Shown piece after piece: positions 19,650 through 32,357 of a stretch of 64,000 nucleotides of DNA. Made by a program: the position numbers and the translations under genes. The DNA is from Natroniella sulfidigena. Lineage in GTDB: Bacteria > Bacillota > Halanaerobiia > Halobacteroidales > Halobacteroidaceae. Within the stretch, counting starts at the first letter, position 1. Each line of letters begins with the position of its first letter. Below the pieces are notes generated by a model, which was not told where the DNA came from, ran no database searches, and saw only the letters and a list, made by a program, of their open reading frames with translations. The stretch is taken from contig NZ_JALKBY010000004.1 in assembly GCF_023223645.1 (NCBI RefSeq), positions 62,001-126,000 of the forward strand, written 5' to 3'.

Positions 19650-20144
19650 TTATAAAACTATATCATCATGTTTTACCGTCTTAATTAATACCTCTCCAGT
19701 TGCAGTATGTAATTCCATAGTTCGTCCATAATTTTCTCCTACTTCAGATCCCAAAATAGGAATTCTTTTTTTCTGCAAAATTTCTTGAACAGCTTCTATA
19801 TTCCTAGCTCCTATTCTCATTTTATCATTTGAACTAGAAAAATTAAACATCTGAGCTCCACCAGCCATCTTAGCTTCTAAACGATTTAGATTAGCTCCTT
19901 TTTTCTGTAATTTATCTAATAACATATCTAAGGCAGTATCTGCGTATTTTGCGGGATTACCTTGCTTGCGATTGCTAGGAAATTCAGGCAACATCACATG
20001 TGCCATGCCTCCGATTTTAGTCAATTTGTGATAGAGGGTTACTCCTACACAGGAACCTAAACCAGAAGTAATGATAATATCTTTCTCACTTCCAACCTTC
20101 AGATCTGCCATCCTAACTCTAATCTTATTCTTCACCAGCAACAC
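19650..20144 (-). CDS. cheD: Chemoreceptor glutamine deamidase CheD
   Basis: Deamidates glutamines of chemoreceptors and binds CheC, stimulating its phosphatase activity. 164 residues. The catalytic Cys is in TSGLGSCVGVTLY (near 27-39) and the His in GGMAHVML (near 45-52). The ORF starts at a GTG at 20144 inside cheC; a GTG nine bases later or the ATG at MADLKV are also possible starts, since no start has a strong ribosome site. CheC and CheD overlap by about 20 nt, indicating translational coupling of two partners. Confidence 0.95.
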   Translation of the reverse strand: MLLVKNKIRVRMADLKVGSEKDIIITSGLGSCVGVTLYHKLTKIGGMAHVMLPEFPSNRKQGNPAKYADTALDMLLDKLQKKGANLNRLEAKMAGGAQMFNFSSSNDKMRIGARNIEAVQEILQKKRIPILGSEVGENYGRTMELHTATGEVLIKTVKHDDIVL

Positions 20145-20760
20145 CCAGCCTATCTAGCATAAATTGTAAAGATTCTGGGTCAGGTATTATAAAAAAGTTG
20201 CCTTTAATCTCATCTTCCATATCACTTAAAAACTCTGTCTCGATCACTAAAGCATAATCTCCAATTTGACCTAATTCTATAAAACAAACCTCCAAAATAG
20301 CCCCTGCCATATCAAATTCTAAAGAAGGAACCGAAGGGCTGATTGTTAACTCTAACATCTGAGAAAAAGCATTCAAATTAGATCCAGTCAAAATATTAGA
20401 AATCTCTTTTAAAGCAGATGCTTCAAGCTCTCCTAAGTCATTTTCAATATCTACTTCTTGACCAACAAGTAATTGAACCAATAAGTTAGCACTTTCTGGT
20501 ACTAGAGTAAATAAAACTCCTCCATCAATATCCCCTTCAGTTCTAACTAACATAGCTGCTATTAATTGTTCGGCATTACCAATGATATCAGGGAGATCTG
20601 AAATTGGAGTCAAGTTAACATTAGGAACAGTCATCTTGATCTTGCTATTTAACATAGCAGATAATGAAGTGGCTGCATTGCCTGCTCCAATACTAGCTAC
20701 TTCCTTTAAAGCATCTAATTGCAACGGCCCTAATTCAGATAGATTATTACTATTAAGCAT
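20125..20760 (-). CDS. cheC: CheY-P phosphatase CheC
   Basis: CheC/CheX/FliY phosphatase family, 211 residues. The family consensus is (D/S)xxxExxN at two sites. The second site is intact (SALKEISN, near 112-119). In the first site (DALKEVAS, near 16-23) the Asn is Ser, so only one site is likely active. In B. subtilis CheC the second site dominates, so function is probably retained. The hydrophobic GAGNAATSLSAML after site 1 is typical. It is followed by cheD and preceded by two PilZ genes instead of the cheB-cheA-cheW genes of Bacillus. Confidence 0.93.
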   Translation of the reverse strand: MLNSNNLSELGPLQLDALKEVASIGAGNAATSLSAMLNSKIKMTVPNVNLTPISDLPDIIGNAEQLIAAMLVRTEGDIDGGVLFTLVPESANLLVQLLVGQEVDIENDLGELEASALKEISNILTGSNLNAFSQMLELTISPSVPSLEFDMAGAILEVCFIELGQIGDYALVIETEFLSDMEDEIKGNFFIIPDPESLQFMLDRLGVAGEE

Positions 20761-29554: not shown

Positions 29555-30757
29555 TTATAATTTCTTTAATCGCTCTTCAGCACTAACAATATCCGTAACT
29601 CTAAAGCCGAAGTTTTCATCAATTACAACTACCTCACCTTTAGCAATCAACTTTCCATTAACTAATAAATCAACTGCTTCTCCTGCTAACCTATCCAACT
29701 CAATTACAGAACCAGGACCTAAATCAAGAATCTCTTTGATTGACATCTTGCTTTTCCCTAATCTAACAGTTAATTCTAATGGAACATCATAAATTAAGCT
29801 AAGATCATTATTCAAATCACTAGCTAACTGTCCACCTAACTGTTCAAACTCAACACCTTCAACTTCAACATCTGGTTGAGGGCTCATCGATGAAGGTTGT
29901 TGCTGTCTTTGTTGAGGTTGTCTCTGCATTTGAGGTTGAGACTGTTGTTGCTGCGTTTGTTGCATTTGCTGCTGTTGAGGTTGCTGGCTTGGTGGTTCTT
30001 GTGAACTACTCTGTTGCTGAGGCTGCTGTGATTGTTCTGGTTTAGAGGTTACTTCTTCAGCTTCTACCTCTTCCTCTTGAGTTTCTCCCATCATCCCCTC
30101 CACTAACTGCTTAGCAAAATCCATAGTCATAATCTGGACAATTTGGCTATCTATCAAATCTCCAATATGCATATCAAATGCTACTTGAACAACTTGATCA
30201 TCTCCTGAAATACCTTTCAAATTAACATCATCACTGCTTAACTCCAATAATTCAGCATTTGGAGGAGAGATATTGATCTTATTACCTGCAAAAAAATCTG
30301 ACATTGATGTAGCAGCAGAACCCATCATCTGATTCATTGCTTCACCTACAGCACTGATATGTAACTCACTTAATTCGCCTGGCGGTTCTGTACCATCCCC
30401 ACCCATCATTAAATCAGCAATAATAGCAGCATCTTCTGTTTCAACAATTAATTGATTACTTCCTTGTAATCCCTCTACATACTGTACATCAACTAAAATA
30501 CATGGTCTAACATAACTGTCCACCAATTGATTAATTGTACTTAATGATACCTCAGGAGCTGTAATTTCTACTTTTTGATCCAATAAACCATATAAAGCTG
30601 TAGCAGCAGAACCCATAGATATATTGGCAACCTCTCCAATTGCATCCTTCTCTAAGGGACTCAATGATACTTCCTCACTCTGCTCAACTTGATCTTCTGT
30701 ATCATTTTCTTCTAATAAAGCACTAATTTCATCTTGAGATAAGACTTCATCACTCAT
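29555..30757 (-). CDS. fliY: Flagellar motor switch phosphatase FliY
   Basis: Switch protein combining CheC-like phosphatase and FliN domains. The ORF is open from 30778, but the ATG at 30757 has an ideal GGGAGGAGG site, giving 400 residues starting [17 protein letters not shown], the CheY-P-binding type motif. Both phosphatase sites are intact: DAIGEVAN and SAVGEAMN. A ~60-residue Gln/Pro-rich linker (about 225-285) leads to the C-terminal FliN domain ([20 protein letters not shown], then [17 protein letters not shown]). The linker is unusually Gln-rich. Start overlaps the fliM stop by 8 nt. It should remove phosphate from CheY-P at the motor. Confidence 0.95.
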
Positions 30758-31757
30758 CGTCTTCCTCCTCCCACTCATCTTGTTCTATCGTCGAATTAAT
30801 TTCAACAGCTAAATTACTGCCTTTTTTGCCTGGTTTTGCTCTGAATTTCTTACGGTTACTGACATGTACTGTCAAGTCTTCCTCTACTTTAGTATCTAAT
30901 TTAATAACATCTCCAACATTCAATTCTAACAACTGTTTAACAGTAATACTTGCTTTCCCTAGTTCAGCTATCACTGGCAATTTAGTCTTTCCTAACCTTT
31001 TCTTCAATTTGTCTAAAGTTTCAGTAGTTGAGCCTTTTCTTGATGTAGAAAACCAATATTGAGCACTCAATTTAGAAACAATTGGTTCTAATACTATATA
31101 AGGAATACAGATATTAATTAATCCTTCAACATCCCCAATCACTGTTTCTACTGTCGCTAAAATTACCATATCATTACTAGGAACAATTTGAGTAAATTGC
31201 GGATTAGATTCTAACTCTTTAAGGCGTGGTCTTAAATCAACCACATTTTCCCACGCTTCACTAAAACTATCTAAGATTCGTTTGTTGATCTTTTTTAGTA
31301 CTACCTCTTCAATATCAGTAAACTCCCTACTTCTGCTTAAAGAACCTCCTTTTCCTCCAAAGAGCCTCTCAACAATAGTATATGCTATCTTAGGATTCAT
31401 CTCAATAATAAACTCTCCATGAAGAGGATAAAAATCACAAACTGACATAATTGTAGGTTGTGGTAAAGAACGAATAAATTCATCATAAGATAACTGCTCA
31501 ATCGATGTTAATTCAGACTTAACCATCGTTCTTAACTGCGTAGAGATCGAAGTAGTCAATAATCGACAAAAACCTTCATAAATCATTCGCAAAGTCCTTA
31601 ACTGATCTTTAGATAGTTTATTAGGATGTTTAAAGTCATATACTTCTACTACTTCCTCATCTTCTTTCTTTAACTCATCTGCTTCTACTTTTCCAGACGA
31701 TACAGCATCCAATAATGAATCAATCTCATTTTGGGATAAAACTCTATTTGACGACAT
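30750..31757 (-). CDS. fliM: Flagellar motor switch protein FliM
   Basis: C-ring protein that binds CheY-P and FliG. 335 residues. N-terminal CheY-P motif [13 protein letters not shown] (near 6-18). The middle CheC-like domain has the FliG contact GGKGGS (near 135) and a C-terminal FliN-like SPOA domain from ~250 ([20 protein letters not shown]). An AGGGGG site precedes the ATG. Its upstream neighbour is a tiny ORF encoding another copy of the N-terminal motif. Confidence 0.97.
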
Positions 31758-31822: not shown

Positions 31823-31891
31823 TTACTCTTCTTCTGTCTTAGCTTTGATTAATTCATCTATCTCTTCTTGAGATAGAACTTCATCAGACAT
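31823..31891 (-). CDS. 22-residue ORF encoding a stand-alone FliM/FliY N-terminal (CheY-P-binding type) motif
   Basis: Between fliL and fliM lies an ATG ORF of 22 codons. It begins [15 protein letters not shown] and ends KAKTEEE. Its first 11 residues differ from the FliY start ([11 protein letters not shown]) at only one residue (E for D), and it matches the FliM start ([11 protein letters not shown]) over the motif. The start is preceded by AAAGGGGTGAT, an excellent ribosome site overlapping the fliL stop, 13 nt away; fliM starts 65 nt after its stop. It might be a real micropeptide that binds CheY-P, or the remnant of a deleted fliN/fliY copy. The sequence and ribosome site are seen; function is inference. 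Confidence 0.6.
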   Translation of the reverse strand: MSDEVLSQEEIDELIKAKTEEE

Positions 31892-31904
31892 TCATATCAC
31901 CCCT

Positions 31905-32357
31905 TTATTGAATCACAAATTCTGTAAAGAATACATTAGTAACTTCCCCTTCCAATAATTTCTCATTTATATTTTCCATGACCTCACTTCTTATCTCCAT
32001 TGCTCCCTGATCAGAAGTTACTTCTTCTTCTTCCTTACTTCTTAAAATAGAGATAATAGTGTCTCTAATCTGTGGCTTACGCTTATCTATCTCTTCAACA
32101 ACATCATCTTCATTAACTTCAACAGTAATGTTTACTCTAATAAACCTTCTTCCTCCAGTAAGATTAACTAAGAATTCACCTACCTCAGTAATTGGCCCTA
32201 ACTCTCTAGCCGTAGTGCTTACTTCAGTTTCCTCTCCTTGGTTAAAACCTCCTAAATTAACCATCATAAAGTAGGATATTCCGGTAGCTAACACTACTGC
32301 GATCAATATTCCTAAGATTAAGCTATAGTTTAAACCACTTTTCTTGTCCTCGCTCAT
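31905..32357 (-). CDS. fliL: Flagellar basal body-associated protein FliL
   Basis: 150-residue single-pass protein around the stator ring. The N-terminal membrane helix is at 11-30, followed by the periplasmic/extracellular FliL domain with GEFLVNLTGGRRFIRVNITV (near 58-77) and the C-terminal TNVFFTEFVIQ, the family's conserved ending. It lies 3 nt downstream of motB; next in the operon is the micro-ORF. Confidence 0.94.
   Translation of the reverse strand: MSEDKKSGLNYSLILGILIAVVLATGISYFMMVNLGGFNQGEETEVSTTARELGPITEVGEFLVNLTGGRRFIRVNITVEVNEDDVVEEIDKRKPQIRDTIISILRSKEEEEVTSDQGAMEIRSEVMENINEKLLEGEVTNVFFTEFVIQ

Follow-up and report, generated by a model that had tools for sequence, protein, structure and literature searches.

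The window, that is, the whole 64,000-nt stretch of Natroniella sulfidigena DNA that we analysed, carries a short open reading frame between the flagellar genes fliL and fliM. The features at this locus are as follows:

31823-31891, minus strand: micro-ORF of 22 codons, ATG to TAA in the sequence, encoding a free-standing FliM/FliY-type CheY-docking motif
31897-31906, minus strand: ribosome-binding site of the micro-ORF, AAAGGGGTGA, overlapping the fliL stop codon (31905-31907)
31905-32357, minus strand: fliL, 150 aa, the upstream neighbour, assigned from gene order and from resemblance to the FliL proteins of relatives
30750-31757, minus strand: fliM, 335 aa, the next gene downstream, preceded by a ribosome site of its own and carrying the motif at its N-terminus
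29555-30778, minus strand: fliY, the third motif copy, 407 aa as listed, true start likely the second ATG

The frame, the ribosome site across the fliL stop codon and the three motif copies in tandem genes (micro-ORF, fliM and fliY, each at the N-terminus) were all present as the first-pass annotation had described them. A gap of 65 nt separates the micro-ORF from fliM, which has a strong ribosome site of its own, AGTAGGGGG. As listed, the fliY ORF (29555-30778) begins MSGRRKT...; its second ATG overlaps the fliM stop codon and is most likely the true start, because a GGAGGAGG ribosome site stands in front of it and this start is conserved. No known RNA element was found by Rfam in the fliL-fliM interval.

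From base composition, chance would place the motif [LM]SQxEIDxL about 0.013 times in the genome irrespective of context; with an ATG five codons upstream the genome-wide expectation falls to about 0.0002. These expectations, together with the distribution of the family among the searched genomes (see below), rule out a chance ORF. In a DNA comparison, the first 45 nt of the micro-ORF were identical to the 5' ends of both fliY and fliM at only 32 of 45 positions, and the Natroniella frame is therefore not a recent copy of its own fliM or fliY start. Natroniella acetigena carries a 21-codon ORF at the same place between fliL and fliM, with AAAGGAGGGA as the ribosome site at the equivalent position. 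Thus, the expectation of a conserved frame in this interval among relatives was borne out for N. acetigena, but not for the other eleven of the 13 genomes recovered in a FliM search of the same order, where the gap lacked the micro-ORF.

We searched for the bare peptide in 59 genomes of the class, which extended the search to short frames at unlinked places. Stand-alone, single-copy genes of 22-23 codons were found in four further genomes of this family of salt-loving, Halobacteroidaceae-type bacteria, namely two Orenia species, Halonatronum and Halobacteroides, at two other genomic sites, one of which is shared by Orenia and Halonatronum. The fliL-fliM setting is special to Natroniella and does not extend to the family as a whole. 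The encoded peptides are:

Orenia (G011): MGDEVMSQEEIDALIEQMKNKD
Orenia metallireducens (G012): MGDEVMSQEEIDALIEQMKNQS
Halonatronum saccharophilum (G008): MGDEVMSQEEIDALLEEMKNQD
Halobacteroides: 23 residues

The peptide gene is present in 6 of 8 family genomes (Halanaerobacter and one Orenia are without it) and is represented in each of the three main branches that a FliM+FliL tree gives for the family; outside the family it was not found among the 59 genomes of the class. Across the family the product has 21-23 residues, with the consensus [S/G]DEV[L/M]SQ[E/D]EIDxL followed by a short charged tail.

Two independent species pairs allowed selection to be examined codon by codon. Between the two Natroniella species five codons of the micro-ORF differ and all five changes are synonymous at third positions (P = 1e-4 to 1.2e-3 under random substitution, depending on transition bias), so that the proposed comparison of synonymous with non-synonymous changes came out in favour of a coding gene. 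The Orenia pair likewise has five differences over codons 2-20, all synonymous (P = 5e-5 to 7e-4), and the sequences differ at codons 21-22. When both pairs were pooled, 10 of 10 changes fell at third positions (P = 1.7e-5; Fisher test of third positions against positions 1 and 2, P = 7e-6). These patterns indicate that the micro-ORF is an intact gene under purifying selection on the encoded peptide.

The first-pass annotation had weighed a still translated gene against a decaying remnant and had leaned to the former. A disused remnant of a duplicated fliY or fliM 5' end would account for the 32/45 identity and for the occupation of this particular site in Natroniella only. We nevertheless regard it as highly improbable, since the motif changes are all synonymous in two independent pairs, other genera have the same gene at unlinked sites, where it is equipped with a promoter and a terminator, and each of the family's three main branches includes carriers. 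Nor do we give much credence to the Natroniella ORF as a leader or spacer that sets ribosome traffic into fliM, with the peptide itself irrelevant. Such a role would fit the location in the fliL-fliM interval and the good conservation, between both Natroniella species, of the 65 nt that precede fliM as well, but fliM has the strong site AGTAGGGGG for itself, the gene is not linked to fliM in four other genomes, and the codon changes respect the peptide rather than the RNA.

A profile built from the six peptides was run against the 59 genomes of the class. The six micropeptides gave the six best scores; these are high by construction, and the finding is therefore the lack of other short frames. 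The remaining matches at E 0.05 were frames of at least 123 aa, mostly FliM and FliY. In the phylum (399 genomes), no other short frames were among the matches listed (the best ~150, to E 2.3e-4). A ribosome site of its own, the motif at the start and a length of ~20-25 codons occur together in six genomes. Although the N-terminal CheY-docking motif of FliM is present, the micropeptide does not belong to the FliM model TIGR01397, where matches of 11.4-13.1 bits were confined to the first 16-17 profile positions, against a cut-off of 219.6 bits that applies across a full-length protein of ~320 residues. The same holds for the FliY model NF005995 (13.9 bits over residues 3-21, cut-off 218), which describes a protein with CheC-like and FliN-like domains, whereas the micro-ORF has 22 codons. 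No Pfam or NCBIfam model matched the micropeptides above its cut-off. Searches for phage, plasmid or viral carriers found none, although such tests are weak for a 22-residue query. No earlier report of such a micropeptide was found in the open-access literature, in which the bare motif string as a query returned typographic noise only.

Several other frames were considered as members and rejected. The 114-aa frame in G145 is a FliY cut short: at 105-434 of L107 FliY ends after ~70-80 residues and the next frame is transposase-like by eye, so that an insertion likely truncated it. In G415 the match belongs to a FliN-type protein that carries the motif, in G003:C16 it falls inside a 199-aa protein, and a 53-aa frame in G019 is without the SQ motif.

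Outside Natroniella the gene lies away from motility genes. In Orenia and Halonatronum the gene just upstream encodes a ~318-aa protein (L059 3826-4785; L061 3883-4830), and the downstream gene is lactate-racemase-like (assigned by eye). The Orenia genome without the peptide gene (G010) has kept both neighbours and lacks the ORF, which is a clean loss. The Orenia and Halonatronum genes share the element TTTATGATAAAATA ~70 nt upstream, with an extended -10 and a 16-nt spacer, as well as an AAGGAGG-type site before the ORF and a terminator-like hairpin after it (z = -4.3 for the Halonatronum hairpin). In Halobacteroides the gene is preceded by a TTGAAA-18-TATAAT promoter. Taken singly the promoter matches are near shuffle expectation, and it is their conservation in three genomes that argues for a promoter. 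The promoter outside Natroniella looks housekeeping rather than flagellar.

The three branches of the FliM+FliL tree consist of Natroniella, of Halobacteroides with Halanaerobacter jeridensis (which lacks the gene), and of Halonatronum with Orenia (one Orenia lacking it). At least three changes are required on this tree, for example a single gain and two losses, the gene having moved into the flagellar operon in Natroniella. The sequences are so short that separate gains from fliM or fliY ends may also have taken place.

The best match of the profile among solved structures was 4iga_B, the Thermotoga maritima FliM N-peptide in complex with CheY. A cheW-cheA-cheY-cheB operon lies on another contig of the same genome (G000:C19; L099 5726-9736), and the nearest matches of its 120-aa CheY are to T. 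maritima CheY, among them 4iga_A. This operon adjoins his genes and gyrase-like genes, and the same arrangement was seen in N. acetigena (che genes and the gyrase side), Halonatronum, Orenia and Halobacteroides. A second chemosensory cluster (L105 2495-7532, G000:C29) comprises, by eye, cheB, cheD, cheR, cheA and a 126-aa receiver. Within the window, cheC-like and cheD-like genes at 19650-20760 end the flagellar operon. The che genes had been thought absent; with two clusters on other contigs (C19 and C29) and cheC/cheD in the window, this proved mistaken, and the suggestion that the peptide substitutes in part for a missing cheY or cheAW falls in the face of complete che operons elsewhere in the genome.

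LSQxEIDxLL is a widely conserved CheY-binding motif, and in Caulobacter its Ile-Asp pair is required for binding (PMC5677366). Escherichia coli FliM begins MGDSILSQAEIDALLN, compared with MGDEVMSQEEIDALIE for the Orenia peptide. In E. coli, FliM Asp12 pairs with CheY Lys119 (PMC7012829); all six micropeptides retain this aspartate (at position 13 in Halobacteroides), and Lys119 is conserved neither in the host CheY nor in T. maritima CheY. Phosphorylation of CheY raises its affinity for FliM-N ~20-fold, FliM-N binding is coupled to CheY activation, and a phosphomimetic CheY double mutant is inactive when free and active when bound by FliM-N (PMC7355467). Because the motif is identical to that of the solved FliM-CheY peptides, we infer that the micropeptide binds CheY.

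The partner might instead be another CheY-like face, such as the regulator of the second che cluster or a different receiver, and not the motor CheY. The second cheA cluster with its 126-aa receiver, the location of the unlinked copies away from motility genes and the binding of the same FliM motif by the CheY-like Cle proteins of Caulobacter (PMC5677366) all fit such a partner. Halonatronum, Halobacteroides, N. acetigena and one Orenia, however, have one CheA-type match each and nevertheless carry the peptide gene, and we consider a partner other than motor CheY improbable.

Since a docking peptide detached from the motor is unable to bring CheY to the C-ring, it should serve as a decoy or buffer or, through the coupling of binding to activation, as an allosteric helper. 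On the sequence evidence the micro-ORF is probably a translated micropeptide gene whose product binds CheY, preferably CheY-P, as a soluble decoy that is unattached to the motor. The peptide would be translated as a free product, would dock on the CheY face used by FliM and FliY with a preference for CheY-P, and would thereby reduce and buffer the pool of CheY-P that the C-ring can use, which would set the switching bias. An allosteric helper would also bind CheY, stabilising its active form and so raising phosphorylation by small donors or slowing dephosphorylation, for instance by keeping phosphatases of the FliY/CheC type away from CheY. Such a helper draws support from the coupling of FliM-N binding to CheY activation (PMC7355467) and from the presence of CheC and FliY in the same gene set, but it would need the peptide to be at least as abundant as CheY. 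We consider it unlikely, though a more serious candidate than a different partner, and favour the decoy. Against the decoy, a free peptide of 22 residues may be rapidly degraded, or may be too scarce to compete with the many copies of FliM and FliY. The two family genomes that lack the gene, its distance from motility genes and its housekeeping-type promoter outside Natroniella, and the unconserved Lys119 of the host CheY also speak against it. On balance, we lean towards an undescribed micropeptide common to the family, a genome-encoded soluble copy of the docking tail that would buffer CheY-P in a tunable way or act as an allosteric cofactor.

Few signalling systems have been quantified as well as chemotaxis, and FliM-N peptides have served as in vitro tools in work on CheY. 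If the decoy reading is true, chemotaxis output would be set by a short linear-motif decoy and not by a phosphatase, a new control layer in a textbook pathway. Genuine genes of ~22 codons can moreover be found by combining a motif with codon-level selection.

The N-terminal segment of FliM (E. coli FliM 1-16; T. maritima, 4iga) has the same LSQxEIDxLL-type motif directly after the start codon, and the spacing from Met to Asp12 is equal in five of the six micropeptides. In FliM, however, a flexible linker tethers the motif to the C-ring, whereas in the micropeptide it is the whole of a free protein. FliY, the CheY-P phosphatase of the Firmicutes-type switch, also has the motif at its N-terminus; it carries CheC-like and FliN-like domains that the micropeptide lacks, and the FliY proteins of this family have EIN or EIS where the micropeptide keeps EID. 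MciZ and SgrT are inhibitory bacterial micropeptides that block an interface, and we know of no such micropeptide that copies the FliM docking motif. The likeness lies in very short translated regulators that bind one partner, translation being predicted in the present case. CheY-P sinks such as Sinorhizobium CheY1 are receiver proteins that drain phosphate. The micropeptide would resemble CheY1 in lowering the CheY-P that reaches the motor; unlike that receiver, it would be a decoy made of a short linear motif, binding without chemistry.
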